Assembly (NCBI GenBank): GCA_964019135.1
Contig: OZ025252.1
Coordinates: 12,044,823 to 12,108,822 of the forward strand
Length of the DNA: 64,000 bases
From: Arenicola marina
Lineage: Eukaryota; Annelida; Polychaeta; Arenicolidae
Direction: 5' to 3'
This document shows, one piece after another, positions 37,913-64,000 of the stretch (within the stretch, counting starts at the first letter, position 1; every line of letters starts with the position of its first letter). The notes beneath the pieces were generated by a model. The model was not told the DNA's origin. It ran no database searches and saw nothing but the letters and a program-made list of their open reading frames with translations. The translations under genes and the position numbers were made by a program.

Positions 37913-37964
37913 CACTGCCTTGGCCCTACGGCAGTCGATGCTTGGACGCACCAACCAGAAACCG

Positions 37965-38057: not shown

Positions 38058-38280
38058 TGAAGTTCATCTAATGGTTTCTACGCGTGTTCATCTGGCACGG
38101 GACTGAGGACCGTGGCTACCGTAACTGCCTCTATACAACACTGCAGTTTAAATGTGGTAGGACCCAACTTTAAACAGACCTTGCGTCAACTGCTAATGTC
38201 AACTGGCCAACGTTTTTTTTTTACCAGATAGAGTGTACTATTACAAGCGTCAGCAAAATGGGCTTACTTGATAGGCATTT

Positions 38281-39356: not shown

Positions 39357-41898
39357 CAAATCAAAAATCAAAAAGAATGAGATATTATCAGGCTTACCAG
39401 TCAACCAGGCCAGCAGAAAACTGTCTCAATGATAAATGATACAGATTTTGGCCATTTTCCGAATTTCGTCAAAAATCTAACAAAAATCTAGGGTTTTGAT
39501 TTTAGTGCCAAACCGTTGACGACATGTACGCGAATGCCATAAATAAAACAGCTGGCACAGCAACCTCTAGAGTCGCTAGCACAACTATGATATCGATATA
39601 ACGATTCTGATGTAAGATTTCACTAATTACTATAATTATGATTAAAACATAAAGTAATGCCGTCAATTGTTATTTTTCATTCTTGCATGTGAGGTTTAAT
39701 GCTTTTGCGATCTTCGCTGGGACCTGCTGGGAATGTTAATGTATTTTTACCGCGTTTATACTATACTGCGCGAATGGGCACTGACTGGATGATCGCATAG
39801 GATCTGGCGCACTGGTGCATAGCCGTCACGCACGAGTTGGTGGCCAGAGTCAGGCATCGGACCGTTAAGTCATATTCGGGCATGTAGAGGTCAGTTCAGT
39901 GTCAGTGTCAGACATGCATAGCATGGTAGAACGTAAATTTACCTCTTTTGGAGACGCCGGTCATGCTGTATAAGGCAAGTTTTAGTTGTTGCGTTTAGCT
40001 TTTGGCTCCCGTTTATATGTTAAGAAAACTATTGAAGGTTATAATGAAGATATTTCAATTCCTTCCGTATGGTTAATATTCCACGTAGAGGTGAGGCTTT
40101 CATTCATCGTCTCTAAAGCCATAAGTATTGGTAATGGAGTGGTCATTTATGGCGACCCGTTGGGGCTAAACGGGTCTTGACCCGTTTGGCCCTGCAGAGG
40201 AGGAAATGACAGTGGAGGTGCCCAGCACAGTGTATAAGTATTGCAGATAAACAAACTAGTCTAAGCTGACCACCAGGCGCAACATATAGTTTCATAATTT
40301 AACGGTCCAAGCCGTCGAATCTTTTATTGAGCCATTGTGTTTGCACAGAAACCGCAATACCTGACTCTATTTTCTAGACCTCTATATCTTCGGCTTATAT
40401 CTCAAGTGAGGTCAGAATAGGTTGAAGATCAAAGTCACGGTAACAGTTTTTGATGGGACTACCATTCGAATGCGCAGAAAAGCTTCTTTTTTTGGGAAAA
40501 GATGAAAGGTTGGACGTTTGGCTTTGACCATCGATGATTTTATCACTTGTTATATATGTGTGTTTGCGCTATGAAACTTTAAAGGAAACCATGATACTGG
40601 AAGGGGAACGCCCGTTAATTTTTACCATACTTGTGTTTTCCCACCACTCCATGGTAACGTTCCCGTGATCTCCCGCGCTTGTTTGTTTTAACAGGCACCC
40701 TTGTCATGAAGGGGATACTCGCGCAACGATGACGTCATTGCGCCTACATTCCAACAACCGTCGCTAAAGAAATATCCAGAAAGTGAAGAATCTGTCCGGC
40801 CTCACATCTGGAGAGTTGGTCAAAGAGACGTATGTATGTTTCATCAAGGAAAATAGACGTATGCCCTGTGCCAAATATGTTTGCATGTTGTCAACTAAGG
40901 AACCACATACCTACAAGACAATAATAGCGTACAATTTAGCAATATAGTTTATAGCTGGAAAAACAGCTAACCAATATAATAATACGCAGCAGGGTCTTAT
41001 GTAACAATAAATGTTAGGCTTGCGGTAGCGGGATCACCGTGGCGCCACCTAACAAGTGCTATTTATGTGACCGTTTTTTTTCCACAGTGCCAGCTTGATT
41101 TGTCGCAATATCGCGATATTATTCAAATGTAAATAACAACAAATCATATTAAATACGAAAATCCGGACTTTTAGCCGTCAATTCCGAAAATAAGTGACAA
41201 TACTGAGTTTCCATATGGGGTTCAGGTGGCAGCCTTTCCTTATAAGTATATGACACAGTGCCCCTTGCAAACTGAGCCCGGTTCATCGTTAGATCGTGAT
41301 CGGCGTCATGTCTATATGTCATATGTTTAATAATCTCAAAATAACCGGAGCCTCATTGTGTTAACCATGATGACATAAAAGGCAAATCTTATAGTGCTAT
41401 AGCATACAGAATGAATAAATGAATAAAGCCAATTTCAGTACTGTAGGCGCAAACCCCATGGTACAAGAACAGTTCATAATTATATACATAAAATTTAACA
41501 AAAATAGGGCAAAACGTATTCATAGAAATAGATCACGACACGCCCCACATTTAAATAATTAAATTGAATTATCAGCTGCGAGAAGGTAATTTTGCGTACA
41601 TTGGAGGCTAAATATAATTTCTTTGTTCTTCGACCTTTTGAAGTTACGGTTGAAATAAAATTGTCTTGGCTGGGATTTTCTATGATGGTAGATGCAGCTG
41701 TCGCATGGATTGATATTATTTTATTATTGTTTATTTCGTACCAAAGGATACAGTGAGCACGTATCTTTTTGTATAATGGTGGGTAAGAATATCGCCTTGT
41801 TCTTGCTTGTTTAACATTTTTATTTTTCATATACACTAGGAACCTAAGCATGGTGGAAACATTTAAAATCAACATTCAAGGAGTTAAAATATGATGAA
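39357..41898. other. Spacer with a palindrome and a CRE-like site
   Basis: AT-rich spacer. It contains a direct copy plus an inverted pair of GACCCGTT (40154-40187) and a perfect CRE TGACGTCA at 40730-40737 framed by GCGCAA and TTGCGC. A 126-codon minus-strand frame (41495-41875) is lysine/isoleucine/asparagine rich, has no family motif and lies in AT-rich DNA, so I do not call it a gene. Confidence 0.4.
40154..40187. repeat. Inverted repeat AAACGGGTC / GACCCGTTT
   Basis: AAACGGGTC at 40168-40176 and GACCCGTTT at 40179-40187 form a 9-bp perfect dyad with a two-base centre. A further direct copy of GACCCGTT lies at 40154-40161. Confidence 0.7.
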
Positions 41899-42525
41899 TC
41901 AACCCTTTGGTTTGCCATTATGAGATTTAGAAGCATCCAACTTAGAATCACTTCCCTGGATGGCTAAATTCGATAAAAGTCGCACCACTTCATTGGTATC
42001 CCCAAGGCAGCCTGAAATAAAAGAACACATTCGACAAGATAATTCTAGCGGCACTGGGAAACAATCAGCGATTAGAAGTAACAGCCGTGGGTAAGTGGAG
42101 GCAAATTAAAAATCCTGTGGGCATATCAGTAAACAGTGTCATCTTCTACTAAGTATTCCCCGTGTTTTTTACAATATTTGCAGACCCTTAACTCTCTTGG
42201 TACATTAATATGCCTTAATTCTTCAGTCGCTGGTTAATATACACTACATCTAAATCTCGACAACGCGATTATGTGCTTTAAAACACTCACACAGTCTATG
42301 TAAATTCAATTTCAATAGCACATTTAAATTCCACTGTGCTACAAATCTTACTATTTAAGCGCAATTCCGAGTATCACGCTTGCTGGCCAATGTCCTTGAG
42401 TCTTTGCTTTGCTTCGCTTAAAAATGTCATGTGTCCTACATCTTGCACGATCCAACAATATCCGAATCCTAGCCTAAACAATAACTCTTTGACCTCGGTC
42501 GCCCAGGTTCTTCTGCCAATCCTAT
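41899..42525 (-). pseudogene. Non-LTR retrotransposon ORF2 C-terminal remnant
   Basis: Minus-strand reading from 42520 gives TWATEVKELLFRLGFGYCW and FLSEAKQRLKDIGQQA, then after a stop YSELRLNSKICS. Further on come INVPRELRVCKYCKKHG with VEDDTVY, and finally CSFISGCLGDTNEVVRLL with SNLAIQ, ending in a TGA at 41899-41901. This order (W..EV..LL..LGFGY.W, QRL.D..Q.W, the zinc-binding IP.E.R.C..C.....EDE, then a helical tail) is what I know from C-termini downstream of reverse transcriptase in invertebrate non-LTR elements. TGG-to-TGA at the expected tryptophan and several other stops and frame changes show it is dead. An acceptor-like TTTTATTTCAG at about 42012-42022 initially suggested a host exon; continuity of the retroelement reading across it argues against that. 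Confidence 0.6.
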
Positions 42526-42779
42526 TGAGACATCATATGGTAAGTAGCCTTCGGCATCTATTGGTCATCCATACCCAGTAAATTGCACCACTATTTGTAG
42601 AACTTAAACTTACGTACATATCTTTTACATATCTTTTAACTGCCACATTCAGCCGGAACAATCGAGTTTGAAGCGTGGCTGGGCAGTTTCAGCACTTATT
42701 TACAAAAGTTCGTATGGGCCCTTTTTAATAGCAACACGTGTATTGAAACTCCAAATTTCACTTACATATGTTAAAATAG

Positions 42780-42950
42780 TTTGGCATCCGTCCGTCTGCG
42801 AAAGACGATGGATTTTGCAGCTTTGTTCGATTTCAAGCGATACGATTTGCGTCGCAGCACTTGCGCTTATGGCTGAACAAGCCTATCTGTGACCCACAGA
42901 GCTTCCCGCAGTCGTCGCATCGATGACCTGTCGATAGGTCTTGGTTTGTA
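42780..42950 (-). pseudogene. Retroelement 3' end with CxxC...GL..H...C zinc-binding motif
   Basis: On the minus strand from about 42945: TNQDLSTGHRCDDCGKLC followed by GSQIGLFSHKRKC, ending CDANRIA and a TGA at 42833-42835. The pattern C-x2-C-x3-C-x-S-x2-GL-x2-H-x3-C is one I associate with the extreme C-terminus of RTE-like non-LTR ORFs, and the short 3' segment after the stop (through GACGGACGGATGCC, about 42780) resembles their 3' UTR. Only this tail is present, consistent with 5' truncation on insertion. It appears unrelated to the remnant at 41899-42525, so two insertions lie side by side on the same strand. Confidence 0.5.
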
Positions 42951-43094
42951 CTCGCTGGGTGCTTAAGATAGGTAGCACCATTTTATCAAATAAATTATAC
43001 ATTCTTTTGACATCAGTAAATTTAATCTTTATGACCGTTTGCGGTATAATCACAGCTGCTTAGTGCTGATGCTGTTGATAGTGTATAGAGTGTA

Positions 43095-46000
43095 CAGGCG
43101 ATCCGAGTGACGAACAACATGTACCATACACCATAGCGGTTCTGTCGAGGGCGCGGCGATCCACGCATAAACAACATGTACCATACACCATAGCGGTTCT
43201 GTCGAGGGCGCGGCGATCCACGCATAAACAACATGTATCATACACCATAGCGGTTCTGTCGAGGGCGCGGCGATCCACGCATAAACAACATGTATCATAC
43301 ACCATAGCGGTTCTGTTGAGGGCGCGGCGATCCACCCGTCAACAACATGTACCATACACCATAGCGGTTCTGTTGAGAGCGCGGCGATCCACCCGTCAAC
43401 AACATGTATCATACACCATAGCGGTTCTGTCGAGGGCGCGGCGATCCACGCATAAACAACATGTATCATACACCATAGCGGTTCTGTTGAGGGCGCGGCG
43501 ATCCACGCGTCAACAACATGTACCATACACCATAGCGGCTCTGTTGAGGGCGCGGCGATCCACCCGTCAACAACATGTACCATACACCATAGCGGTTCTG
43601 TTGAGAGCGCGGCGATCCACCCGTCAACAACATGTATCATACACCATAGCGGTTCTGTTGAGGGCGCGGCGATCCACCCGTCAACAACATGTACCATACA
43701 CCATAGCGGTTCTGTTGAGAGCGCGGCGATCCACCCGTCAACAACATGTATCATACACCATAGCGGTTCTGTCGAGGGCGCGGCGATCCACGCGTAAACA
43801 ACATGTATCATACACCATAGCGGTTCTGTTGAGGGCGCGGCGATCCACGCGTCAACAACATGTACCATACACCATAGCGGTTCTGTTGAGAGCGCGGCGA
43901 TCCACCCGTCAACAACATGTATCATACACCATAGCGGTTCTGTCGAGGGCGCGGCGATCCACGCGTAAACAACATGTATCATACACCATAGCGGTTCTGT
44001 TGAGGGCGCGGCGATCCACGCGTCAACAACATGTACCATACACCATAGCGGTTCTGTTGAGGGCGCGGCGATCCACCCGTCAACAACATGTACCATACAC
44101 CATAGCGGTTCTGTTGAGAGCGCGGCGATCCACCCGTCAACAACATGTACCATACACCATAGCGGTTCTGTTGAGAGCGCGGCGATCCACCCGTCAACAA
44201 CATGTATCATACACCATAGCGGTTCTGTCGAGGGCGCGGCGATCCACGCGTAAACAACATGTATCATACACCATAGCGGTTCTGTCGAGGGCGCGGCGAT
44301 CCACGCGTAAACAACATGTATCATACACCATAGCGGTTCTGTCGAGGGCGCGGCGATCCACGCGTAAACAACATGTATCATACACCATAGCGGTTCTGTC
44401 GAGGGCGCGGCGATCCACGCATAAACAACATGTATCATACACCATAGCGGTTCTGTCGAGGGCGCGGCGATCCACGCGTAAACAACATGTATCATACACC
44501 ATAGCGGTTCTGTCGAGGGCGCGGCGATCCACGCATAAACAACATGTATCATACACCATAGCGGTTCTGTCGAGGGCGCGGCGATCCACGCGTAAACAAC
44601 ATGTATCATACACCATAGCGGTTCTGTCGAGGGCGCGGCGATCCACCCGTCAACAACATGTATCATACACCATAGCGGTTCTGTTGAGGGCGCGGCGATC
44701 CACGCGTAAACATGTATCATACACCATAGCGGTTCTGTCGAGGGCGCGGCGATCCACGCGTAAACATGTATCATACACCATAGCGGTTCTGTTGAGGGCG
44801 CGGCGATCCACGCATAAACAACATGTACCATACACCATAGCGGTTCTGTTGAGGGCGCGGCGATCCACGCGTAAACATGTATCATACACCATAGCGGTTC
44901 TGTTGAGGGCGCGGCGATCCACGCATAAACAACATGTACCATACACCATAGCGGTTCTGTCGAGGGCGCGGCGATCCACGCGTCAACAACATGTATCATA
45001 CACCATAGCGGTTCTGTCGAGGGCGCGGCGATCCACCCGTCAACAACATGTATCATACACCATAGCGGTTCTGTTGAGGGCGCGGCGATCCACGCGTAAA
45101 CAACATGTATCATACACCATAGCGGTTCTGTCGAGGGCGCGGCGATCCACGCGTAAACAACATGTATCATACACCATAGCGGTTCTGTTGAGGGCGCGGC
45201 GATCCACGCGTAAACATGTACCATACACCATAGCGGTTCTGTCGAGGGCGCGGCGATCCACGCATAAACAACATGTACCATACACCATAGCGGTTCTGTC
45301 GAGGGCGCGGCGATCCACGCGTCAACAACATGTATCATACACCATAGCGGTTCTGTCGAGGGCGCGGCGATTCACCCGTCAACAACATGTATCATACACC
45401 ATAGCGGTTCTGTTGAGGGCGCGGCGATCCACCCGTCAACAACATGTATCATACACCATAGCGGTTCTGTCGAGGGCGCGGCGATCCACGCGTAAACATG
45501 TATCATACACCATAGCGGTTCTGTCGAGGGCGCGGCGATCCACGCGTCAACAACATGTATCATACACCATAGCGGTTCTGTCGAGGGCGCGGCAATCCAC
45601 CCGTCAACAACATGTATCATACACCATAGCGGTTCTGTTGAGGGCGCGGCGATCCACCCGTCAACAACATGTATCATACACCATAGCGGTTCTGTCGAGG
45701 GCGCGGCGATCCACGCGTAAACAACATGTATCATACACCATAGCGGTTCTGTCGAGGGCGCGGCGATCCACGCATAAACAACATGTATCTTACACCATAG
45801 CGGTTCTGTCGAGGGCGCGGCGATCCACGCGTAAACAACATGTATCATACACCATAGCGGTTCTGTCGAGGGCGCGGCGATCCACGCGTAAAAAACATGT
45901 ATCATACACCATAGCGGTTCTGTCGAGGGCGCGGCAATCCACCCGTCAACAACATGTATCATACACCATAGCGGTTCTGTTGAGGGCGCGGCGATCCACC

Positions 46001-48393: not shown

Positions 48394-48448
48394 TGTTTTC
48401 CGCTCTATTTATAGCGTAATCAAACTGGTGATACAGGAAGGTGTTGCT

Positions 48449-48458: not shown

Positions 48459-51400
48459 ATGGGATGTATCCAAGGCAAGGCTGAGGAGGAGCCAGAGAAG
48501 GACCCACCGCCTATCGGAGCCACAGACGCCCCGCCTAAAACGGTCGACCCTCGTTTGCCGTTCGACAACTACAGACAATTGTTTCAAATGAAGAACTCCT
48601 GGAAAGCTGTCAGTCGTGCCTTGGGAGACACGGCCAAGGACAACTTAATCAGGTGACAAGCTTGTGGTTGTCACTGCTGCCTATGTACGATCTCCTTCCA
48701 TCCAACTAAAAGTCAGGTCAAAAGCATTGCTATGCAAATTATCTCTAAGGCATAAATGTTGCATAACGTTCAATGTAATTCACACAAGTATTAGCATCGT
48801 TAGCTTTATTTCCGAGATTAAAACATTTTGTCCCGATGACTATGGTAATAATTGCCAGAATACCACACTGTGATGCTCCTTGTGATGATGTTGCTAGCCG
48901 AAATATTAATATCCTAGATAATGGAATGCCGTGACTTCCAGCGCCCAGAGCGTCAGAGAGTGGGCCGCCGTGACGCGCCCAGCTACCGTGACGGTAAACC
49001 TCAGTGACCGCCTTGCATGTGCTTGCTTTTAGATTTTTCGCCACCCACCCCGAGCATAAGGCACTCCACAAAAACTTGGTGGCGCTGGAGACAGAAGAGC
49101 AGATGAGAGCCAGTACGGCCTTTGAGAACGCGGCTCTCGCCATCTACGATACATTCGATGAGGCGATGGAGGTTCTCGATAAAGTGGACATGTCTATTGA
49201 TTGCTTCAAGCGGGCTGGGCGGGCCCACGTCAATATCGAAGGATTTAAAGCAGATTATTTCAAGGTAGGTTCTTTTCGTCATATGTCGTAATATAATATG
49301 TATCATAGCAAAGATATTAGTACACCAAGATAGGTCATACGGCGCGCCCATTGTAAAATGTGTAATGCGGCAAGTAGTGGCGCCCTGTTAACGGCCCTGT
49401 TAAAGGCGCCCTGTTAACTAAAAATATGATAATCGCTATTAATCGAGTTGATATAAAGCCTGGTGGTATCCTTTAAAGCTTTCAGGTATATTTGACACTA
49501 AATATGTGCATTTTTTTAGTGTTGATGCGGCAATGATTAGGCCTAGCCGTTAGTGCCACCAAGGCTTTATATAAATATATGTTCCGAGAACGTCATTCAA
49601 TGGCAGTCTACTTTTTGATTTGGGGGTGGGGGGGGGGGGGGGGGGAGCTGTTTTTCCTAACTTGCTGATAATTTTGCTGCTTGTTAGCGATTATAATAAG
49701 ACTACAACTTCGTAATTATTTAGCACAGGTGTCAGTGGGGCGGGTGGGGGGGGCTGGTTTCCCTAACTTGCTGATACTTTTGTTGCTGCTTTTTAGCGAT
49801 TATAATAGAATAAGACTACAACTTCATAATTATTTAGCACAGGTGTTAGGGAAACCAGCAGGTGGGTTCCTACTGTGTTTCGAATAGGCTGTGGGGGACC
49901 CCTACCCCCCCCCCCCCCTTTGATTTACTTTGCCTGATCGATTTTTAAATGCCTTTACTGGCATCAATCGCCCGCTTCGTCGTTGGCGATAATAGAGAAT
50001 TGTCAGCAGTTGTGGAGGTGATAATCGATGCACCATATCCATGACTGATAAAATTAAAGCAAGACGCAGGTTTTATCTTTCTTTTTCCTTGGGGAATCTG
50101 AAAAAACGACGTTTCTGGACATTTCTTTCGCGAATTCGCGCCATTCATGGCAGAACAACGCCATGGCTCACCGCTTGGCGGCGCCACCGGAGAACGATTA
50201 CAAGGAAATCGCCGTATGACCTATCTTGGTGTACTAATATCTTTGATAATAAGTAAAACCTTAAAGAGCGAGCGCAACTATTTTCGGACTGAAAAGTTGT
50301 ACTGGCGACTGCGGACGAAAGAAAACCAGTCAGGGAGAACCGAAACAGTTGCACAGTCAGAACGCCCTCTGCTGAGTGGCAAATTGCAAGGTTGGGATAC
50401 ATAGCGCGGTTTTAGTGTAATGTGAAGTCCTAGCATTTGAGCAATATGTTGATTACCTGTTTAGGGTAGATAATTTAATGATTAAGGACGTGACATAGCG
50501 CATTTTGACCCGTGTCTGGCGGATAATGTTTTGGCGCCGATGACATTTGCTCCAAACTCATCGAGAAAAGTCTGATGGGGCTGTTACGCAAAACAACTGA
50601 AGCTATGCATCTACACACCATTATGGGGTGCCGTAGCGGATTTAATTAAGACTGACACGAGGGATCACTATGGCAAGGCAACTCTCCGTGCATCAAGATG
50701 GCACCATGCCACACACACCCCACCCCTCCAACCGCTGTGTTTTCTGGCTCTTACAACAGCAAACAACACAATCAAATTAGTACATCAGTGGTATCCTCTA
50801 ACAATAATATATGAACTCCCGATCTCGAACCTAAGTGTAACTAGATACTGTAGGTGGCGTGAGCTCTCCGAAAAATGGGTTGGGTCCACTGTGCGTGGCG
50901 TCAGCTCTCCGAAGAATGGGGTGGGTCCACTGTGGGTGGCGTGACCTCTCCGAAGAATGGGGTGGGTCCACTGTGGGTGGGGTGAGCTCTCCGAAGAATG
51001 GGGTGGGTCCACTGCGGGTGGCGTGAGCTCCCCGAAGAATGGGGTGGGTCCACTGTGGGTGGCGTGAGCTCTCCGAAGCATGGGGTGGGTCCACTGTGGG
51101 TGGGGTGAGCTCTCCGAAGAATGGGGTGGGTCCACTGCGGGTGGCGTGAGCTCCCCGAAGAATGGGGTGGGTCCACTGTGGGTGGCGTGAGCTCTCCGAA
51201 GAATGGGGTGGGTCCACTGTGGGTGGCGTGAGCTCTCCGAAGCATGGGGTGGGTCCACTGTGGGTGGGGTGAGCTCTCCGAAGAATGGGGTGGGTCCACT
51301 GTGGGTGGCGTGAGCTCTCCGAAGAATGGGGTGGGTCCATTGTGGGTGGCGTGAGCTCCCCGAAGAATGAGGTGGGTTCACTGCGGGTGGCGTGAGCTCC

Positions 51401-53844
51401 CCGAAGAATGGGGTGGGTCCACTGTGGGTGGCGTGAGCTCCCCGAAGAATGAGGTGGGTTCACTGCGGGTGGCGTGAGCTCTCTGAAGAATGGGGTGGGT
51501 CCACTCTGGGTGGGGTGAGCTCTCTGAAGAATGGGGTGGGTCCACTGTGGGTGGCGTGAGCTCCCCGAAGAATGGGGTGGGTCTACTGTGGGTGGCGTGA
51601 GCTCCCCGAAGAATGGGGTGGGTCCACTGTGGGTGGCGTGAGCTCCCCGAAGAATGAGGTGGGTTCACTGCGGGTGGCGTGAGCTCTCTGAAGAATGGGG
51701 TGGGTCCACTCTGGGTGGGGTGAGCTCTCTGAAGAATGGGGTGGGTCCACTGTGGGTGGCGTGAGCTCCCCGAAGAATGGGGTGGGTCTACTGTGGGCGG
51801 CGTGAGCTCTCCGAAGAATGAGGTGGGTCCACTCTGGGTGAGGTGAGCTCTCCGAAGAATTGGGTGGGTCCACTGTGGGTGTCCTGAGCTCCCCGAAGAA
51901 TGGGGTGGGTCCACTGTGGGTGGCGTGAGCTCTCCGAAGAATGGGGTGGGTCCACTCTGGGTGGGGTGAGCTCCCCGAAGAATGGGGTGGGTTTACTGTG
52001 GGTGGCGTGAGCTCCTCGAAGAATTGGGTGGGTCCACTCTGGGTGAGGTGAGCTCCTCGAAGAATGGGGTGGGTCCATTGTGGGTGGCGTGAGCTTTCCG
52101 AAGAATGAGGTGGGTCCACTGTGGGTGGCGTGAGCTCCCCGAAGAATGAGGTGGGTCCACTGTGGGTGGCGTGAGCTCTCCGAAGAATGAGGTGGGTCCA
52201 CTGTGGGTGGCGTGAGCTCTCCGAAGCATGGGGTGGGTCCACTGTGGGTGGGGTGAGTTCTCCGAAGAATGGGGTGGGTCCACTGTGGGTGGCGTGAGCT
52301 CTCCGAAGAATGGGGTGGGTCCACTGCGGGTGGCGTGAGCTCCCCGAAGAATGGGGTGGGTCCACTGTGGGTGGCGTGAGCTCCCCGAAGAATGAGGTGG
52401 GTTCACTGCGGGTGGCGTGAGCTCTCTGAAGAATGGGGTGGGTCCACTCTGGGTGGGGTGAGCTCTCTGAAGAATGGGGTGGGTCCACTGTGGGTGGCGT
52501 GAGCTCCCCGAAGAATGGGGTGGGTCTACTGTGGGTGGCGTGAGCTCCCCGAAGAATGGGGTGGGTCCACTCTGGGTGGGGTGCGCTCTCTGAAGAATGG
52601 GGTGGGTCCACTGTGGGTGGCGTGAGCTCCCCGAAGAATGGGGTGGGTCCACTCTGGGTGGGGTGCGCTCTCTGAAGAATGGGGTGGGTCCACTGTGGGT
52701 GGCGTGAGCTCTCCGAAGAATGGGGTGGGTCCACTGTGGGTGGCGTGAGCTCTCCGAAGAATGAGGTGGGTCCACTGTGTGTGGGGTGAGCTCCTCGAAA
52801 AATGGGGTGGGTCCACTCTGGGTGGGGTGAGCTCTCCGAAGAATGGGGTGGGTCCACTGTGGGTGGCGTGAGCTCTCCAAAGAATGGGGTGGGTCCACTC
52901 TGGGTGGGGTGAGCTCGTCGAAGTATGGGGTGGGTCCACTGTGGGTGGCGTGAGCTCTCCGAAGAATGGGGTGGGTCCACTGTGTGTGGGGTGAGCTCCT
53001 CGAAAAATGGGGTGGGTCCACTCTGGGTTGGGTGAGCTCTCTGAAGAATGGGGTGGGTCCACTGTGGGTGGCGGGAGCTCTCCGAAGAATGGGGTGGGTC
53101 CACTGTGTGTGGGGTGAGCTCCTCGAAAAATGGGGTGGGTCCACTCTGGGTGGGGTGAGCTCTCCGAAGAATGGGGTGGGTCCACTGTGGGTGGCGTGAG
53201 CTCTCCAAAGAATGGGGTGGGTCCACTCTGGGTGGGGTGAGCTCGTCGAAGTATGGGGTGGGTCCACTGTGGGTGGCGTGAGCTCTCCGAAGAATGGGGT
53301 GGGTCCACTGTGTGTGGGGTGAGCTCCTCGAAAAATGGGGTGGGTCCACTCTGGGTTGGGTGAGCTCTCCGAAGAATGGGGTGGGTCAACTCTGGGTGGG
53401 GTGAGCTCCTCGAAGAATGGGGTGGGTCCACTGTGGGTGGCGTGGGAACACAGACATATTCTTCGGACGTCTACATTTCGAAACATGAGATATGTTTCAA
53501 ACGCATGTGTCCTAAATACAACTTCGAAGGGCATAGAAACAACGTCCGAAATCTATAGCACTGACTAATTAAACATAACATTAGATTCATTCGCTTTAAA
53601 TGTTAACAAAGATACTAATATCTTTAATGTTAAATCAGAGAGTGCCGTTTTGTTGCAATATGATTTCGCTCATACATCATTTCCTTTTCCTTAGGATATG
53701 GAGGATTCCTTTGTGAGAGCGGCAGGGAACACATTGGGTGACCGGTTTAATGACGCCGCGGAACAGAATTTTCACCGGTTGTTTGGCTTCGGCACTACAA
53801 ACATGCTGCAAGGCTACACGGAAGGCGGTGGAAACCAATTGTGA
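48459..53844 (+). CDS. Membrane-anchored (globin-X/neuroglobin-like) globin, three exons
   Basis: Exons 48459-48652, 49033-49264 and 53695-53844 join to 191 codons plus TGA. All splice sites are GT-AG (CAG/GTGACA, TTTTAG/A, AAG/GTAGGT, CCTTAG/G). The introns are in phase 2 within Arg65 and phase 0 after Lys142, the classical globin B12.2 and G7.0 positions. The protein starts MGCIQGK, fitting N-myristoylation on Gly2 and palmitoylation on Cys3 as in globin X. A Pro/Glu-rich extension leads to the A helix (NSWKAV, Trp48) and B helix (NLIRFFATHPE). Proximal F8 histidine is His130 (RAGRAHV). By ungapped comparison with neuroglobin the CD1 position is His77 instead of Phe and E7 is Ala98 instead of His, so ligand chemistry may be unusual. 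The G-H region is normal (LGDRF...QNFHRLFGF). The role is inferred: heme-based redox or signalling at the membrane rather than bulk oxygen storage. The 3' end has AATAAA at 54534 and 54633. Confidence 0.85.
49451..49572. mobile_element. 122-bp foldback element in globin intron 2
   Basis: Left end ATATAAAGCCTGGTGG and right end CCACCAAGGCTTTATAT are inverted repeats with a single one-base gap. Inside, ACACTAAA and TTTAGTGT form a second nested dyad. There is no coding capacity. Most likely a small MITE; target duplication unclear. Confidence 0.6.
49647..49859. repeat. 106-bp tandem duplication with 15-bp terminal inverted repeats
   Basis: Two copies offset by 106 bases share CCTAACTTGCTGAT, TAGCGATTATAATA and AATTATTTAGCACAGGTGT. 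The second copy (49753-49859) is bounded by perfect inverted repeats GCTGGTTTCCCTAAC and GTTAGGGAAACCAGC. A run of about 19 G precedes the first copy, whose left border reads AGCTGTTTTTCCTAAC. Confidence 0.75.
50846..53444. repeat. 41-bp minisatellite inside globin intron 2 (array 7)
   Basis: About 63 copies of a 41-bp unit: CCACTGTGGGTGGCGTGAGC then TCTCCGAAGAATGGGGTGGG then T. Variants are CTGTGGGTGGCG/CTCTGGGTGGGG, CTCTCC/CTCCCC/CTCCTC and AATGGGG/AATGAGG. Blocks of several units recur, for example 52860-53060 and 53170-53350. Long minus-strand frames (up to 588 residues, proline/serine/histidine rich) follow from the lack of stops and are artefacts. The whole array lies within the transcribed globin intron. 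Confidence 0.96.
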
Positions 53845-55678
53845 GGTCGCACACATGAAGATACACATAATTATGTCCAAGCGGGTTTATTTATGCAAAT
53901 GGATCAAAAATGAGGCCACGCCAAACACGACAGTGAGAATACAATGTCACGTGGATTATTTATATATGGAGTATGGCTACTCCAAGATGTCATACATATC
54001 ACAGTTCTTATGGAATGCAACATGTTGTCCAAGTTTTTCACTTTTTCACTATTTGAATTCATGTTTACCCATTAATAAGTATGTATAGCTATCGGTTATT
54101 TAAAAATGAGCTTTCTTTCTTCCTGTTTTGTATATTACCAGGTCTTACAGTAGTTGTTAATGAAGATTTCGCGGCAAAAAAGCTAATTATACTGAAGAAA
54201 TGTGGTATATAAATTATATTGTCTTTTCATTAAGCGTATATGCTCGATATTGTTGCAACATAAATATAGCGGGGACCAAAATATCGTCACAAGGGAAAGA
54301 AATTTGTCTTGTAAATTGTTCATGTCACGTGGGTTGTGATTGGTTTGATATCAATTCACTCCAACTGTAAATTTTTACTTTCCATATAGTGTTTCATTCA
54401 CGTGTACAATGTAAGCAATATACGGTACACATCGTGAACTCGCTAAGGAAAGGTTGGTAAAATATAATGTCATATAATTGACATATTTGGTGATGCACAA
54501 CAAGTTTATTAACTGTACAAGTTAAAATGTAACAATAAACAATATAATATTAACAATCAATGGGGTTGGATACGCTCATTCGTGATTATGCGTAACATTG
54601 AATTTTGCAGCTAACATGACATTTCCTGTATTAATAAAGCACAATGTCCTGGTTAGTATATATATTACTAACCTGTGCATCTATGCATTGACAGTGGGTA
54701 TAGTTGCTATATTTGTCGGACGCTTATATTTGGAATTGCTTCCCCATGAACAAGACAGTGGGGTGACTATTCGTTGATGGCCTCATACCTTCGGCACCAA
54801 GCACCAGCTAATGTGCATCACTTGCTATGTTCGTGAGGGTAACGTTGTGACGACTTCAACATTTAATAAATGATTTGGTCCACAACGCTGCACGGTAACC
54901 TAGACTTCATGTGAGTAATGTACAAATGAAAAATCCAAATCGAAAATAGGTGCACGGTATATATATAGCGTATATTGCAGTAATCCAACAGAAGGTTTGC
55001 GGTGATAGACTATTTTTAGTCTGCATCGCATAATTGCTTCTGGTAAAACATTGAAATGAGATTCCTGCCGCATGTATCGCCTGTTCAAATTCGTGTCATG
55101 TATGTTATGTAAGCAACTCGTGGGTACTCTTTGGCTACACAAGCATAGTGGTCTCCGAGAGAATAAAAAGTTATGAAGAAGAACTTGCGCAAACCTCGTA
55201 CTTGAAAACATCAAAGTATAGCCCAACGAAGTACGTTTATATTGTCATTGTAGACAATAGTATCGTTTCTCGATGGATGTTTCTTCTGCCTTCAGGCTGT
55301 AATATAATTAATCGTTGAAAAATGTGTGTTGCACTTCACCGATTTGCACACTAAGATGATGTTCATGTCATATGAGATGAAACATGATTAAGTAAAAACA
55401 CACAACGGCAGCTGTAACCTATCCTTGTTGCAAATGTCTCTATTGCCACTTTTGTGTTAACACTTCTAACGTAGGTGGTATACAAGTTATATATAGGTAA
55501 CCGCCCTTCTTCCTGCAATACCATATCATTCAAATGGTTGGAAGATGTGGCGGACAGACGTCGATGGCTTCTTTTTTCATTTATTTTTATTTATTTTATT
55601 CTGTTTTCAATTTAATTTACATCATGCAATCACCCGAAACAATACATCATTTAAACATCACTAGACAGTGAGACACAA
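53845..55678. other. Globin 3' flank and spacer
   Basis: AT-rich DNA after the globin stop, with polyadenylation hexamers AATAAA at 54534-54539 and 54633-54638. No further exon recognised. A 108-codon minus-strand frame at 54900-55226 has a faint retroelement-like tail but no decisive motif. Confidence 0.45.
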
Positions 55679-56012
55679 CCACAAAGGACTAATCTCTTCC
55701 AGATAAGGTCACACAAAAATACCACAAAGGACTCTCTTCCAGATAAGGTCACACAAAACAACCACAAAATACTCTCTTCCAGATAAGCAGGGGCGGATCT
55801 AGAATTTGCCAAGGGGGGGTTGCTCTCCGAAAACTTCCGACTGGGGGTGTGGAGTGTGCTGTCTGAAAAACTTGCGACCGGGGGGAGGGGGGGGGGGGTG
55901 GTGTGCTCGGAGAAGCCGGCTTTAACAGTGTATGTTCAGGATTCCAAGCGGGGGGGTGCAACCCCCGTAATCCCCCCCCCCCTAGATCCGCCCCTGATAA
56001 GGTCACACAAAA
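55679..56012. repeat. Three 40-bp tandem units, third interrupted by a MITE
   Basis: Units at 55679-55718, 55719-55758 and 55759-55787 plus 56002-56012 contain CTCTTCCAGATAAGG and GTCACACAAAA. The first two are uninterrupted and show the empty target sequence; the third is split after AGATAAG by the element at 55788-55996. Confidence 0.9.
55788..55996. mobile_element. Complete 209-bp hAT-like MITE with 5-bp target duplication
   Basis: Perfect 15-bp terminal inverted repeats CAGGGGCGGATCTAG and CTAGATCCGCCCCTG are flanked on both sides by ATAAG (55783-55787 and 55997-56001). Two neighbouring repeat units preserve the empty site with a single ATAAG. CAGGG...CCCTG ends and a 5-bp duplication fit the hAT superfamily (hAT5 type); the class is inferred because no transposase is present. 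The interior is G/C-run rich and non-coding. Confidence 0.85.
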
Positions 56013-58300
56013 CAGCCAATTTACTTATTTATCTATCTGTCTGCGAAAATCTAGATTGATAAAATTTTCCAAAAATATTATAAAACCTTCAAATTTAAAT
56101 TTCGGCCCCATATTCCTCATCATTTGAATGAACGTTTTAGCAGTCACCAAAGTGATGTTTGCATACTCTTTAGGTTTAATGGACATTTGAATCCATTGTT
56201 ATATCTTATACGGCCACCTTTAAATGAGAAGACCGTATATTTTTAGAATTCCATAAACATTTAACTAGCATGTTCTGAACACAATTGGTTTATGCTTAAC
56301 GTGACATGCACGGTCCTGCCTTCATGATCTGACAGGCGGGAAAAAACAAAACCGTGGCTCACTCGTGTCAGTCATTCCGTAGCTATCAGTGAGTTATTGC
56401 AATGGTGCGAAGAGAAGATAGCGACTGGTGGGGGGAGGGCAAATGGTTTTTCCGTTCCTCAGGATTTGGCTTGGCATTGCACCGTGAACTGGGAATGGGG
56501 AAGCCTGCCGACGTGATCACGAATTTTCAGTGATCGTAAACTGAGAATTTCATTATTTAATTTAATAACGGAAAATCGCCAATTTATATCATGCATCCGC
56601 CCTTGCTTTGTATGCGGGCAGTTTAAGTCATCGTGATCTGAGAATAAAGTATATATATATTCTTCGTGATCTGGGAAAACGACCCCCGCATTGTGAGGAC
56701 ATGATATAGTACGACAATGACAAAGAAATATGACGTGACGTACGTAACGACTTCAGTCAAAGTCCCTACCCTGATACTATTTATACATTCAGAAAATCGG
56801 CCCTAGCACATGATTATCGTGCATTGTGAATAACTTAAACAAGGCGAATTATTGCTCGTGAAGCCAGCTAGGCTTACGCCTAGTCAACATCGGAATATTT
56901 AATGTCAACTCTCGAGAAAGCGAGTTGCAATGTGTGATCTTGCAGTGAATGCTCAAAACAATTTCAAGCTGTTGAGACTGTTTTCCCATGCTTATATCGT
57001 GTCAGCCCGTTATACTTGACTGGTTAGATACTTAGAAGCATGTTTCACCCAAAACCATTCAAAGGATAAACACTTATCTAATCATTAATGAAATTGTCAC
57101 CGTGGACAACATGTAGGCAGACAATACCGCAGAGTCAAGTTCTCCGAGAAAGGGGTGTGGGGGGGGGGGGGAGGCGGGGACTCCCTATAAATCGCGAATC
57201 CCCGAGAATCATGGAGAGTAATAACGATCCCCCAAAAATGCTAGCAGCCAATCGCGGAGATCGGAAAAGGTATTCACTCCTCTCAAGAAAGGGTCTCCGC
57301 AATCATGAAGCATTGCAGTGGTTGGCCAACTATTCAAGTCATAACTGTAGGACTAGTACATCTAACGAATTTGTGCATTCCAGTCTGGGTTGAAGCTGTT
57401 AAAACTTGCATTTTACTACTTGGATGTTGTCGTAGGTGACTGCACCGTGACAATAGCATGACGCCATGAAGTTATTCCCATTCTGAATCATCGATCCGCG
57501 TGATGAAGCCGCGAGGTGGCGTTATGGCACACAACTCGTTGAAATAGCATGTTAATTAAGAAGCGGATCCATGAAAAGTGAGGCCGCCGGTCAATTTTGA
57601 CAATAGATGTTGACTCTACCGTAGAATTGAAATTACGTTTACTTGTTGCCTCCCAGGCACCCAGTGATTGGATGTCATTCGAAGTCGTCGGGCGATAAGC
57701 AACGTTACAAATACGTTACAAAGACATAAGGTGTAATGCCTTAAATATTGAGGGCCGCTTGTCGAGGCGGAGAAACTAAGACCTACCAGGAAGTGGCAAT
57801 GGCCAGGCTGTCGTTTTACCGCATATCCCCGACACAAATGGAGAAGCAAATAATAAAAATCTCCAAGAAAATGTGAATGAGCGACCAAGCAGCTCAACAA
57901 GGCTAGAAGGCATCAAAGCAGACGATTACCAAGGATGATTCCATGTGATGTTTGGGTTCAGACCGTCGACGGTTTAGTAGGATGTCAAACACCATTCGCT
58001 GGCTATTACACGTTTTAGCGAATTCCGCATTATTTAACGTATCGTCTCAAAGGATAACTTCCGCCGTATTGTTATGCCACAGGGTGGAACGTGTGCGTAA
58101 AAAATGGAGTCATTAACATAGCATTGCAGACGATATCTGAGTGGTTTCATGTAATCCCAAAAGGCATGGATTGGCTTACAATGACGCCATATTACAAATA
58201 TGACTTGTGTAGACTCATGCTTCAAAAGATGGGGTTGGCAACCCACCCGAAGCCAACAAAATACATCTCATGCTGGAAAAGCACCATCAACCTACCCAGC
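56013..58300. other. Spacer with one CTCF-like site
   Basis: Mixed spacer with only short open frames lacking family motifs. A poly-G run lies near 57159-57171 and a CTCF-core-like word at 57509-57520. No gene recognised. Confidence 0.4.
57509..57520 (+). promoter_or_regulatory. CTCF-core-like word CCGCGAGGTGGC
   Basis: Exact match to the first twelve positions of the often-quoted CTCF consensus CCGCGNGGNGGCAG; the last two bases differ. One motif in a spacer can be chance. Confidence 0.3.
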
Positions 58301-58309
58301 AAACACGGA

Positions 58310-58510
58310 ACAATGTTAGTTCCGTGTTATGTTACGGACGAACATTCTCGTAATATTCGCGGAATGTTATTTCTGTGTTATTTCAGGGACGAACATTCCC
58401 TTAATTCGCAGAATGTTACGGACGAACATTCCCGTAATATTCGCTTAGTGTTATTTCCGTGTTACGTTACGGACGAATTACGAGAATGTTTTGCGAATGT
58501 TACGCTTGCA
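58310..58510. repeat. Short mixed direct and inverted repeats around GGACGAACATTC
   Basis: ACGGACGAACATTC, GGGACGAACATTCCC and ACGGACGAATTACG occur four times together with CGGAATGTTA, CAGAATGTTA and GAGAATGTT, which are partly inverted copies. Together they give a 200-bp patch able to form several alternative hairpins. Confidence 0.6.
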
Positions 58511-58582
58511 CGAAAAAAACCTTCGTTTCGAAATTTATAAATGTTACAACATATATGCAGCATATTGTGAAATATGTGGTTG

Positions 58583-58985
58583 TAGGGGCGGATCCAGGAA
58601 TTTGAAAAGGCGGGGGGTGGGGGTCCATTGAGACTTAATTGCGACCTGGGGTGGGGGGCGGAAGGGGGGAGCTCTGAACAAAGATACGACAGGGTCCACT
58701 AATTTTTCGTAAACTTTCATCATAAAGCGGGTTTGCCGGGGAAAAAAATAAACCGAACGGGTGTCTGCATGGAACTGCGACATAGAGCGGGTCAACGGAA
58801 ATAATACCCCTTCCGAGCGGATTTTGGCGGTGAAAAAGGGAGCGGGCTTTACCGCGGACCCCCCCCCCCCCATCCCCCCAACCCAGCAATGTATTAGGTA
58901 ACCCCCCCCCCCATCCCCCCAACCCAGCAATGTATTAGGTACCCCCCCCCCCTTGAACGCATGGGTTTTCTTCGAAGGGATCCAC
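58583..58985 (+). mobile_element. Degenerate CAGGGG-family element
   Basis: Starts TAGGGGCGGATCCAGGAATT, one base off the family terminus, and contains AATTGCGACCTGGGG. It shares CCGAGCGGATTTTGGCGG with the fragment at 36180-36320. Two direct copies of ACCCAGCAATGTATTAGGTA separated by C runs lie at its right end, which closes near GGGATCCACG. Confidence 0.5.
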
Positions 58986-60249
58986 GAACGTGAAACTGAA
59001 GGTAAGTTAGAATATACACAAATCAGCTCTACGATCACATTACAAACAATATCATCAGTTGCTTATGAAGTAAGCAGGATAAGAAATGTGTAACTAGTCT
59101 ATCAGGCCCTTGACGCTGTGAAAATGTGCTGTTCTATCAGTCTACTTCTGTGCATGATCAAATGATCTGGCCAGAACGCAAATCTTATTGGGTTGAGACA
59201 CCAAACTTACTTCCGGTGTTACAGGGCGGGAAAGTGGAACTCTCTATATTATTTACCACATCCAAGTTGAACGCTATGGAAATGAATTGCGACAAATGTT
59301 CTGATAACTGCACTTTTGTATAGAAATAGAGAATTCGCCGCTTGCTGAATTCTCCCTGCATATTGTATTACCTCTTTCCATTTTCCCAGTATATCAGACC
59401 AACATGAGCATAACACCAGATGTAAGCACAATATAAGTATACCCAGAACCAATCACAAATTTGCCGCAAATTGCATCCGCTATTACTTGACCCATTTAAT
59501 AAACCGAGCCTTATAACGAAGATATTTACCCATACAATAGCGGGATACTCCACATATATCCAATATAGACGTATTTATATATACTCTTTTAAAGTTTATT
59601 ATTATGTCGCCCAAAAAAATAATTATAAAGATACCACGTTTTAATTTAGTCCCCCAAATTATTATTCGTGTATCATATTTGTAATATCGAATTATGATGG
59701 TGTCCTTTGTAGATCGTTTGCCCAATTTGACTTCTTAGAGTCTAGTTCTCCACTTTCTTCTCTTCTTGTGTTGAGGTGGCTACCATGCAAGCGACTCATG
59801 TCATAATGGTGGTCTCCTCGGCCAGGGGTATTAAATCTGTTTATTTTTGCTGTATGCTGTATTGTATTTTTGTTTTCTTGCTTGGAATAAATGATGATTC
59901 TCTCTTGCTAAATGGCCAGCAGGAAACAGACTTACTGCGCATCACGCATAACCATCGTTTTCCAGATTGCACACCATATTGATTTTCACACAATCAAATA
60001 ATTTAAGAGCTATTTAAGTTCTCACTTGCTTCAGTCATATCATCCGAGCATCCGCAATACTCCCGCGGTCTTGATACTATGTCGTTGAAATAGGTGATGC
60101 CAAAGTGACAATGCACAAACAACCCTTTATTACATTAATTTGTCTCCTGTATATAATTGCAACATCCACAGCATGGGCTGTGTGTGGACGTAGCAGGCCG
60201 CGTTATCCCACATTTAGACGTGGAACATTGTCCACAAAATGTTTGTAAC
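58986..60249. other. AT-rich spacer
   Basis: No gene recognised. The segment 59790-59900, with CTCGGCCAGGGGTATTAAAT and GGAATAAATGATGATT, resembles the 3' tail of a non-LTR retroelement but lacks a readable C-terminus. Confidence 0.35.
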
Positions 60250-60582
60250 CCCTTTAGTCACTCTCTGCCTCCGCTAAGGCTCCATTGCATCTCTGCTGTC
60301 GCCTACTTTCCTCAATGCATTTTCACACTTGCTCGCCAGGGCGGCGCTGCGCAAATTGAGTTCAGTTACATTTATAACTTTTTCGAAAGGGTACAAGATG
60401 TTGTTCGCTATGTTAAATACATACAGCGCGTTATTTTTATGTGTTATTCTTGAAAATTATAAAGATGCAAGAAATTACAGTTGATTTTTTTATCGTTTTT
60501 CAAGAATCTTGAAATTTGCCCCCCGCGCCGACAGCAGCGGTAAAAGCGGAGCTTGCGTAGCTCCACCGTGCGGGGAGCTTGC
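60250..60582 (-). mobile_element. Dispersed repeat, minus-strand copy
   Basis: Reverse-complement partner of 46507-46945, colinear over both halves and about 100 bases shorter in the middle. With its partner it forms an inverted repeat pair separated by about 13.3 kb that encloses the globin gene. Confidence 0.75.
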
Positions 60583-61377
60583 CTTTGCAGTGTGTTTCAC
60601 AACGTTACTGGTCTTCTCGAAGATGGAGGTCATGTCATTTCACAGTGGCGTGACTTTCCCACGATCGCGCGGCAGCCAATAGGTTGGTGACAGCGAAATG
60701 AAATTGTCCGGCTTCGGCCAGCGGCTCTATTTCATTACCACACATCTCCTGAGTCGTCTCTTGTAGGTCTTCTCCCGGATGCAGGCTAGCTGGCACGATG
60801 TTCGACGGGGGATTGTATTGTTTGTTGTTACTCTGTCACCGAACCAAATGGCTAATGCCTACGTCATATACTCATAAGTCGTTGCACGACGTTTCCGCGC
60901 CACGCATACGCATCCCGATCCGTTAGCGCAGATACGTTAACGTTTCGGTTTGTCACTCTCACGCGGCACAGTCGGTGTTCAGTCGATAATCATAAGGTCG
61001 AAGCGACGGTTACACAAGCAACACACTATAGATGCATATCAACAAGCAGATTTAGGAACAAATCGTGAATATGGAAACACGTTTAAAGGTCTGGCGTGTG
61101 GGGAAAAAACACGGATTGAAATGAAACAGGAAAATAAAAACGTCCACCTTGTTCGGACTCTGACCGGAAACGGGAAGAGCTAGTCCCCGATTAGTTGATA
61201 TTCCATGTATGACTAAAAACTGATCGTACAAAGATAACCGATAATCGACTACACCCCATAAATACGTTTTATCGTAGCAAAAACTCCTTATTCAAGATAT
61301 ACATAACGAAACAAAAGAAAGAGAAAGTCTTTGATAACCCCATCCTGTCCTGTTAGAAACAGCGCAGAGGAATATAG
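60583..61377. other. Spacer without recognisable gene
   Basis: Contains a CCAAT word near 60675 and an E2F-like TTTCCGCGCC near 60890, but no convincing exon follows. The 77-codon frame at 60950-61183 has no family motif. Confidence 0.35.
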
Positions 61378-61491
61378 ATGGACAATGTACAGAAAGAAGC
61401 GTTATTCACAGCCTTGCCAACACGCAACGGTAATAAGTCCCCAGGACCAGATGGGGTTTTTGAATTTGACAGTTTTTTCTGTACTAGTTAA
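61378..61491 (+). pseudogene. Reverse-transcriptase fragment with KSPGPDG motif
   Basis: The frame reads MDNVQKEALFTALPTR, then NGNKSPGPDGVFEFDSFF, then a TAA. (N)KSPGPDG(h)..EF is the entry motif of the reverse transcriptase domain in L1/Tx1-like and related non-LTR elements; ALF..LP..NKSPGPDG fits it closely. An in-frame TAG precedes the ATG and the domain ends after about 10 residues where unrelated sequence begins, so this is a short dead fragment. Confidence 0.6.
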
Positions 61492-61557
61492 TGAAGGAGC
61501 TGGGGTGCTTTTTTGCACTCTTTCTTTTAGTGCACTCCAGCTCGTTCTTTAACGTAC
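61481..61557. ncRNA. 77-bp hairpin of pre-miRNA-like size
   Basis: GTTAATGAAGGAGCTGGGGT and the following GC (61487-61508) pair with GCACTCCAGCTCGTTCTTTA and the following AC (61532-61553): 22 positions with two mismatches and one G-U pair. A bulge then leads to a closing GTAC/GTAC. The loop is about 23 bases. Size and pairing suit a microRNA precursor; a miniature foldback insertion, which would explain the truncation of the adjacent RT fragment, is at least as likely. Confidence 0.35.
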
Positions 61558-61842
61558 TTATAAAATTGTTGTAACAAAACATTAGTTTTGCTCATGATTT
61601 GTGTGGAGCAATTTCCAGGTTTGGATGCTGGCGATAGACTATTAAGTGTGTCAATTGCACTGCACGACTAATACCTTGGTAAGAATTATGTGTAAACAAC
61701 TGTTTGGCTTCTTGTAGGAGATGGGGTCCAATGTTGGTCTGCATAATAAAAATACTGTGCTGTTTGCCGTTTCGGGTTTTGGGGCAAAACTTTTGTGTCT
61801 TATTATTTGGACGTTACGGTGCCTCATGCCAGGACGTCGCCA

Positions 61843-62088
61843 TGACGTGATGACGTCATAGTTTCACAAAGATCATTACTCTGCTATTATGCGTCACACT
61901 TCCGGTATATTTGACGTTGTACATTATATCCAGAGAAAAGTACTACCATGCGGTACCGAAACCTGTGCGTCAAAAATGACGTCGTTGTTAGAGTGAGCCG
62001 ACGTCATTGTGGAATCGATTCCTGTTCACCTACTAAATTAATAGTTTTCATGAATGTAAGTTCATAAGTAACATGAAAAATGACGTCA
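61843..62088. promoter_or_regulatory. Cluster of six CRE-like sites
   Basis: TGACGTGA 61843-61850, TGACGTCA 61851-61858, TGACGTTG 61912-61919, TGACGTCG 61978-61985, CGACGTCA 61999-62006 and TGACGTCA 62081-62088. Two are perfect ATF/CREB palindromes. Density is far above the rest of the spacer. No gene start was identified next to it. Confidence 0.5.
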
Positions 62089-62137
62089 CGTTGAAGTTGC
62101 TGTGGCAACGGAACTAAGCCCAATGATAATGGTTGGA

Positions 62138-62282
62138 TTTCGGTTACAAACACAATTTGTAACCGAAAGACACCATGTAGAGCCAAACAACTTCATTTGG
62201 CTCTCAAAACGACAAGACGATGGCGACTTTTTTTACTGTTGCAGACTGCCGCTAGGTGCGGCGGGGCGCCTCCTGGCGGCAG
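62138..62282. other. Three consecutive stem-loops
   Basis: Stem 1: TTTCGGTTACAAA / TTTGTAACCGAAA, 13 perfect pairs, 5-base loop (62138-62168). Stem 2: AGAGCCAAA / TTTGGCTCT, 9 pairs, 8-base loop (62179-62204). Stem 3: CTGCCGCTAGG / CCTGGCGGCAG, 11 pairs with one G-U, 15-base loop (62246-62282). The last stem overlaps a minus-strand CTCF-like word, CCGCCAGGAGGCGCC. Confidence 0.7.
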
Positions 62283-62349
62283 CTGGGGCCAATCCTACGG
62301 CGGCCGATAGGTGACATGATCTATGGCCCAGCGACAATCTCCTGTTGGG

Positions 62350-62415
62350 GGGCGCCACGGTAGTCACGTGGTTAGCGCAGAGATTGGTATCAGTCGCAGT
62401 CGGTGAATTCCTTCT
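62350..62415 (+). repeat. tRNA-like SINE head
   Basis: TAGTCACGTGGTTAGCGC resembles a tRNA D-arm / A box, and CGGTGAATTCC about 25 bases on resembles a degraded B box. The acceptor stem cannot be paired, so this is at best a decayed tRNA-derived SINE, not a tRNA gene. Confidence 0.3.
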
Positions 62416-62891
62416 CTATACATCTATTGGTTGACGGAATCTCTTCCAAGTGCGTAACCACCCCTCCCGATTCTCTATTGCCTTTTCCCTATCCTATGTC
62501 TTGAGGGGTTAATCTGTGCGTCTGACTGGAACTGACTTTTCTATTGTGTCCTTGTCCGTATTTTCCCTATTTTCTCGACCTCTTTCTCTGTGTGACATGG
62601 TGGTTCTCTCCTCTCCCAGTCTTCTTCCCCTACATTATTGTCTCGTCGTATCCCTCCACCCCCCCCCCCTCCTTCGTTCTTTGATCGCTTTCTCACTGTC
62701 TCTCTTTCGCGTTCTCTCGTCCACTCCAGCTCGGTGTGTCTGCTTCCCTGTCACTGCCACGGTCTCTTTCGCTTTCTTAGAGTCCTTGTGATGTCTCTCG
62801 CTAGACGTCTGCGCCTGTCTCGGTATCTCTATTGATACCGGGCCCAGACGTCCCGATTTCTCCTCGATCATCGCTGCCACTCCCTTAGCTG
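62416..62891. other. Pyrimidine-rich tract flanking array 8
   Basis: A 450-bp plus-strand C/T-rich stretch with TCTC and TTTCTC runs and a C run at about 62660-62669. No coding motif was seen. Confidence 0.6.
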
Positions 62892-64000
62892 GCCCTCGGG
62901 GACACGTCTTCCGGCTGGCAGCGTGTGTCCCTGGGGACTCTTCTTCCGGCTGGCGGCCTGTGTCCCCGGGGACACTTCTTCCGGCTGGCGGCATCTGTTC
63001 CCGGGGACACGTCTTCCGGCTGGTGGCATCTGTTCCCGGGGACACGTCTTCCGGCTGGTGGTATCTGTTCCCGGGGACACGTCTTCCGGCTGGCGGCCTG
63101 TGTCCCCGGCCGGGGACACGTCTTCCGGCTGGCGGCATCTGTTCCCGGGGACACGTCTTCCGGCTGGCGGCATCTGTTCCCGGGGACACGTCTTCCGGCT
63201 GGCGGCCTGTGTCCCCGGCCGGAGACACGTCTTCCGGCTGGCGGCCTGTGTCCCCGGCCGGGGACACGTTTTCCGGCTGGCGGCATCCGTTCCCGGGGAC
63301 ACGTCTTCCGGCTGGCGGCGTGTGTCCCTGGGGACTCTTCTTCCGGCTGACGGCGTGTGTCCCCGGGGACACTTCTTCCGGCTGGCGGCGTGTGTCCCCG
63401 GGAACACTTCTTCCGGCTGGCGGCATCTGTTCCCGGGGACACGTCTTCCGGCTGGCGGCCTGTGTCCCCGGCCGGGGACACTTCTTCCGGCTGGCGGCAT
63501 CTGTTCCCGGGGACTCTTCTTCCGGCTGGCGGCCTGTGTCCCCGGGGACACTTCTTCCGGCTGGCGGCATCTGTTCCCGGGGACACGTCTTCCGGCTGGC
63601 GGCCTGTGTCCCCGGGGACACTTCTTCCGGCTGGCGGCATCTGTTCCCGGGGACACGTCTTCCGGCTGACGGCGTGTGTCCCCGGGGACACTTCTTCCGG
63701 CTGGCGGCGTGTGTCCCTGGGGACTCTTCTTCCGGCTGGCGGCCTGTGTCCCCGGGGACACTTCTTCCGGCTGGCGGCATCTGTTCCTGGGGACACGTCT
63801 TCCGGCTGACGGCCTGTGTCCCCGGCCGGAGACACGTCATCCGGCTTGCGGCCTGTGTCCCCGGCCGGGGACACGTTTTCCGGCTGGCGGCATCTGTTCC
63901 CGGGGACACGTCTTCCGGCTGGCGGCGTGTGTCTCTGGGGACTCTTCTTCCGGCTGGCGGCGTGTGTCCCTGGGGACTCTTCTTCCGGCTGGCGGCCTGT
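62892..64000. repeat. 35-bp minisatellite array (array 8), continues past the window
   Basis: About 30 copies of a 35-bp unit CCCGGGGACACGTCTTCCGG followed by CTGGCGGCATCTGTT. Variants carry GCCTGTGTC or GCGTGTGTC, and 39-bp units have CCCCGGCCGGGG at the junction. Long open frames on both strands are artefacts. The array is still running at base 64000. Confidence 0.96.

Follow-up and report, generated by a model that had tools for sequence, protein, structure and literature searches.

Phenylalanine at CD1 is held to be one of the two near-invariant positions of globins, and the question raised by the locus described here is what a globin may do when this position is occupied by a histidine and position E7 by an alanine. 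A natural protein with such a combination would test whether oxygen storage can be swapped for redox chemistry by means of a single moved histidine; in the literature that we found, moving a histidine to CD1 has been studied in engineered myoglobins. The gene was analyzed within a stretch of 64,000 bases (the window) on contig C5, and the comparisons within the genome refer to the organism's own 867-Mb assembly, that is, to one genome.

The coding sequence, join(48459..48652, 49033..49264, 53695..53844) on the + strand, comprises 576 nt and encodes 191 amino acids plus the stop codon, with no internal stops. Its parts and the residues discussed below are as follows.

48459..48652, + strand: exon 1, encoding the MGC N-terminus, a proline-rich linker and helices A-B up to the split codon 65 (from the frame, GT donor and start context)
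48462..48467, + strand: N-acylation motif of the MGC start (from the sequence and the same MGC start in paralogues)
48653..49032, + strand: intron 1, B12.2, phase 2, GT-AG (position and phase as in paralogues L025/L026)
49033..49264, + strand: exon 2, the heme-pocket exon, from the end of helix B to the start of helix G (alone matches 5ziq, E=4e-10)
49067..49069, + strand: His77 at CD1, codon CAC (by alignment)
49130..49132, + strand: Ala98 at E7, codon GCG (by alignment)
49142..49144, + strand: Ile102 at E11 (by alignment; 5ziq has His in this column)
49226..49228, + strand: His130 at F8, the expected proximal heme ligand, codon CAC (by alignment)
49265..53694, + strand: intron 2, G7.0, phase 0, GT-AG, containing an inverted-repeat element and a 41-bp minisatellite
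53695..53844, + strand: exon 3, encoding helices G-H and the stop codon

The sequence-only reading had described a gene with intact splice sites and frame, classical introns, Trp at A12 and the F8 histidine, and all of this was confirmed, with correct coordinates: intron 1 splits codon 65 and intron 2 follows codon 142, in positions named by alignment as B12.2 and G7.0, the two ancestral globin introns (Ebner et al., PMC3087553), while Trp48 and His130 are read from the sequence and the alignment. The start codon stands in the context CACAATGGG, with A at -3 and G at +4; no further ATG occurs between it and an upstream in-frame TGA ending at 48431, and an AATAAA is located 690 bases downstream of the stop. 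Not one of 20000 base shuffles of the coding sequence was stop-free. Globin (PF00042; 38.9 bits at a cut-off of 22) was the only Pfam family above its cut-off for the window protein, and a tblastn search with this protein found no further globin-like exons within the 64-kb window.

A six-frame scan of the flanking regions 53845-62896 and 35478-43112 gave no match above a Pfam cut-off; its best match, Imm41 (E=0.0017; 18.8 bits, below the cut-off of 26.9), lies inside the minisatellite 38333-39357 and was rejected. Minisatellite arrays, with main units of 32 to 71 bp and two arrays longer than 9 kb, make up about 60% of the window (1-64000), their total of 38568 bases being taken over intervals in which about 220 bases separating two arrays near 32.7 kb are also counted. 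In intron 2, two inverted 51-bp arms (49306-49356 and 50198-50248; 88% complementary, 841 bp apart) look like a terminal-inverted-repeat element, and much of the remaining intron is occupied by 63 copies of the 41-bp minisatellite (50847-53444). Minisatellites at intron-exon borders were described in two amphioxus globin genes (PMC3087553).

The identity of the pocket residues was examined through the alignment register. Both in the phmmer alignment to 5ziq, the best solved relative, and in a 31-row profile built without the window sequence, the posterior of residues 63 (Leu, B10), 77, 98, 102 and 130 is marked with an asterisk. The alignment to 5ziq is gap-free from helix B to CD1, with one 1-residue gap in the C-D loop, and that to myoglobin 5hlq is gap-free over residues 46-105. 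When the window sequence was slid by -5 to +5 residues, the block score was negative everywhere except at shift 0 in four of the four blocks, in a test that favours shift 0 because the window sequence had itself been part of the alignment that supplied the columns. The earlier assignments of His77 instead of Phe to CD1 and of Ala98 instead of His to E7 are borne out by these data, and a shifted C-D region placing a Phe at CD1 is not supported by the sequence alignment; the protein thus departs from a near-invariant, though not absolute, globin trait. Between the E7 column and F8, the window protein, 5ziq and neuroglobin are all aligned without gaps, which supports Ala98 as E7. The next histidine of 5ziq, four residues past the E7 column, might occupy the E7 place spatially, and Ile102 would then be the E7 residue here; as judged from the sequence, the pocket side of helix E is devoid of histidine under either assignment. 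By alignment, no histidine other than His77 occupies a position in the distal pocket; His70 and His73 belong to helix C. A structure prediction for exon 2 only returned a single 70-residue helix (mean pLDDT 79, pTM 0.42) and was uninformative on the pocket.

Such a pocket is rare within the genome. The Pfam Globin search of the own genome gave at least 29 matches, a list that is incomplete, since the window's own exons are missing from it; when aligned with the window protein, all 29 matches carry both Phe at CD1 and His at F8, while His at E7 is found in 28 of the 29, the exception (L028) carrying an in-frame stop. A search of the same genome with the window protein, in which 14 candidates were scored, recovered its own three exons, followed by a locus on C17 (27% identity, E=3e-9); further loci, including those on C1 and C10, came after it with E values of 0.003 or weaker. 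These candidates include no close paralogue. So far as this search with the window protein reaches, the gene is an intact globin found once in the genome, although another kumaglobin-like gene with a different pocket may exist there. Outside this genome, CD1 is Trp or Tyr in 4 of 15 amphioxus globins (PMC3087553), and Ile in GLB-26 of Caenorhabditis elegans (PMC2867796, excerpt); these residues already contradict the statement of one paper that CD1 is Phe in all full-length hemoglobins (PMC4319818, excerpt). In an arthropod survey, all three key residues were kept in 173 of 187 sequences, and one ostracod globin had Met at CD1 (PMC7457136, excerpt). Our literature search for His at CD1 returned no globin paper, which is weak evidence and does not mean absence in print, as truncated hemoglobins do have His at CD1 (20%, next to 15% Tyr; PMC4720485, excerpt).

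As for the relatives of the protein, phmmer retrieved 186 PDB sequences at E up to 10, and the statements below concern the best 60 of these 186. The best solved relative was 5ziq/5zm9 ('Globin protein'; E=4e-23, 37% identity over 98 columns), which we take to be tardigrade kumaglobin. Far weaker matches followed, among them cytoglobin (E=0.00035), myoglobin 5hlq (0.002), neuroglobin (0.0075) and myoglobin 1ofk (0.0077). The third and fifth entries of this list, 5hlq and 1ofk, are presumably the F43H/H64A and F43H/H64L variants of sperm-whale myoglobin, respectively; as other myoglobins come close behind, from an E value of about 0.01 upwards, the rank in itself means little. A PDB profile search based on the three-row alignment A1 yielded nothing new. 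In a tree of 14 rows and 99 columns, the window protein joined 5ziq at 89/85 (88% of bootstrap trees; not starred), the next branch being the pair of paralogues on C10 (L025/L026; 89/88), taken for globin X-like; six GbX-type paralogues, taken for globin X, formed a set of their own at 92/95 (not starred), and the window protein fell outside this globin X clade. With the C10 pair alone starred, the placement is suggestive, and by this sequence comparison the window globin would be related to the globin X-like/kumaglobin lineage. Kumaglobin-near globins are already known from annelids: in Alvinella, five adjacent globins were reported with kumaglobin as the closest known structure (PMC12403961, excerpt).

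Several further features of the globin complement were observed in the course of these searches. Six globin-X-type genes (L001-L003 and L005-L007, on C17, C1 and C11) contain the globin fold in one open frame, with neither the B12.2 nor the G7.0 intron, and may descend from retrocopies. The globin exons of L025 and L026 (C10) are nearly identical to each other, as are those of L021 and L023 (C1, C5); the two pairs represent either recent duplicates or unmerged haplotypes. Ten extracellular-hemoglobin-like matches (L004, L008-L015 and L020) form two clusters at C14:19.06-19.13 Mb and 21.33-21.37 Mb, and two of them, L008 and L014, start with D/ECGPLQRLKVKHQW after a signal-peptide-like stretch, a start that in our view resembles annelid globins.

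The N-terminus of the window protein, MGCIQGK, contains by motif the N-terminal acylation signal of globin X-like proteins, and we assume that its MGC start conforms to the motif rule for a lipid anchor. Membrane attachment had been suggested from this start; the motif is indeed present in the sequence, but it is not special to this gene, being shared by six of the eight globin-X-type paralogues examined (L001, L002, L006, L007 and exon 1 of L025 and L026), whereas L005 begins with MGG and L003 with neither. For L021 and L023, no first exon could be located in the own genome. The frequency of the MGC start among the paralogues makes the anchor a family trait. N-acylation has been described for both globin X and X-like proteins (PMC7771090, PMC3176823, excerpts), and in globin X both Gly2 and Cys3 were required for correct membrane targeting (PMC3176823, excerpt). 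Judging by its first residues, the window globin is probably anchored to the membrane as well.

Considering these features, our preferred reading, to which we assign a rough probability of 0.4, is that the window protein would be a membrane-tethered redox enzyme or sensor of a peroxidase-like or nitrite-reductase-like kind, rather than an oxygen store, with His77 as the distal base. Heme, we infer, would most likely be bound via His130; Trp at A12, Leu at B10, Ile at E11, His at F8 and the classical introns are all consistent with a heme globin. The distal side would be lined, by alignment, with Leu63, His77, Ala98 and Ile102. His77 would be too distant from the iron to bind it tightly and could act as an acid-base or hydrogen-bonding group on a bound peroxide, nitrite or other small ligand, the space vacated at E7 would provide an open channel, and the redox activity or sensing would take place at the membrane. 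This reading was adopted because of what is reported for myoglobin. Nitrite reduction falls about 3-fold when H64A is the sole change but rises to about 8-fold over the wild type in F43H/H64A, and in the ferric form of the double variant nitrite sits between His43 and a water, the loss of His64 opening a channel (PMC7925009, excerpt); in Mn-myoglobin with His64 kept, F43H gives 5-fold higher H2O2 activation (PMC7319466, excerpt). In truncated hemoglobins, too, the CD1 His hydrogen-bonds the ligand (PMC4720485, excerpt).

The chief rival of this proposal, already raised in the sequence-only reading and in our view possible but rather unlikely, is that the C-D corner swings in and His77 becomes the sixth heme ligand, yielding a bis-histidyl (His130-Fe-His77) electron-transfer or sensor globin. 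Kumaglobin is described as hexacoordinated (a title cited in PMC12403961, excerpt), as are GLB-26 and globin X (PMC3520999, PMC3176823, excerpts), so that the window globin could be hexacoordinate like them, and the helix-E histidine of 5ziq aligns with Ile102 here, which may mean that the lineage has exchanged the position of the ligand. However, His43 of F43H/H64A myoglobin touches nitrite and the distal-ligand water, not the iron (PMC7925009, excerpt), and the engineered myoglobins suggest by analogy that a CD1 histidine serves in acid-base or hydrogen-bonding chemistry on the distal side rather than as a sixth ligand. Ranked after the bis-histidyl globin, and a little less probable still, is a relaxed pocket, in which the fold would be kept and heme bound weakly or not at all, the protein being a scaffold at the membrane or a non-heme sensor. 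Neither the CD1 Phe nor the E7 His is present, as such a pocket would allow, and human hemoglobins with a non-aromatic CD1 are usually unstable (PMC3087553); on the other hand, B10 and E11 still carry Leu and Ile, the core still aligns with a globin of known structure, and the kept F8 His counts against relaxation, since a loss of heme binding should let this residue change.

Two more trivial explanations would remove the unusual pocket altogether. That the gene is decaying, or that an allele or an assembly error was read, would agree with its having been found once, in one assembly, and is nevertheless improbable in view of the uninterrupted reading frame, the canonical splice sites at conserved positions, and the at least two base changes that lead from a Phe codon to CAC. 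A misalignment hiding a true Phe at CD1 appears the most improbable of all as far as the aligned sequences tell, for the nearest preceding phenylalanines, 66 and 67, belong to helix B, from which the alignments to both 5ziq and myoglobin run gap-free to a CD1 column with an asterisk posterior at residue 77.

A more far-reaching formulation of the preferred reading, a membrane-tethered redox protein with His77 as distal base, is tentative, and we would put it below that reading itself: a full-length 3-over-3 animal globin in which the distal histidine has naturally moved from helix E to CD1 and E7 has been emptied may have converged independently on the pocket engineered into F43H/H64A myoglobin and on the CD1 His found in some group II truncated hemoglobins, and may work as a membrane-tethered peroxide or nitrite enzyme.

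Compared with known systems, the window protein shares Ala in the E7 column and His at F8 with 5ziq, which differs in having Phe at CD1 and the helix-E His aligned with Ile102. The N-acylated globin X and globin X-like proteins resemble it in the MGC start and long N-terminus, and the C10 pair also in the B12.2 intron, but the paralogues of both types keep Phe at CD1 and His at E7. In amphioxus relatives, CD1 is Trp or Tyr and E7 is Leu, in place of His and Ala (PMC3087553). GLB-26, which is N-myristoylated and hexacoordinate and was proposed to be a heme peroxidase signalling H2O2 (PMC3520999, PMC2867796, excerpts), likewise combines N-terminal acylation, present here as a motif, with a replaced CD1, the residue being Ile there and His here. 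Some group II (O) truncated hemoglobins possess a natural CD1 His (PMC4720485, excerpt), but they have a two-over-two fold and belong to another family, whereas the window protein is full-length, has helix A and matches PF00042 only. The closest counterparts in the pocket itself are the engineered myoglobins: 5hlq (E=0.002) matches the window protein at B10 (Leu), CD1 (His) and E7 (Ala), and of these three positions 1ofk (E=0.0077) differs at E7 alone, where it carries Leu. These proteins are man-made and derived from an oxygen-storage protein of another lineage, have no lipid anchor, and contain Phe at CD4, where the window protein has Leu.
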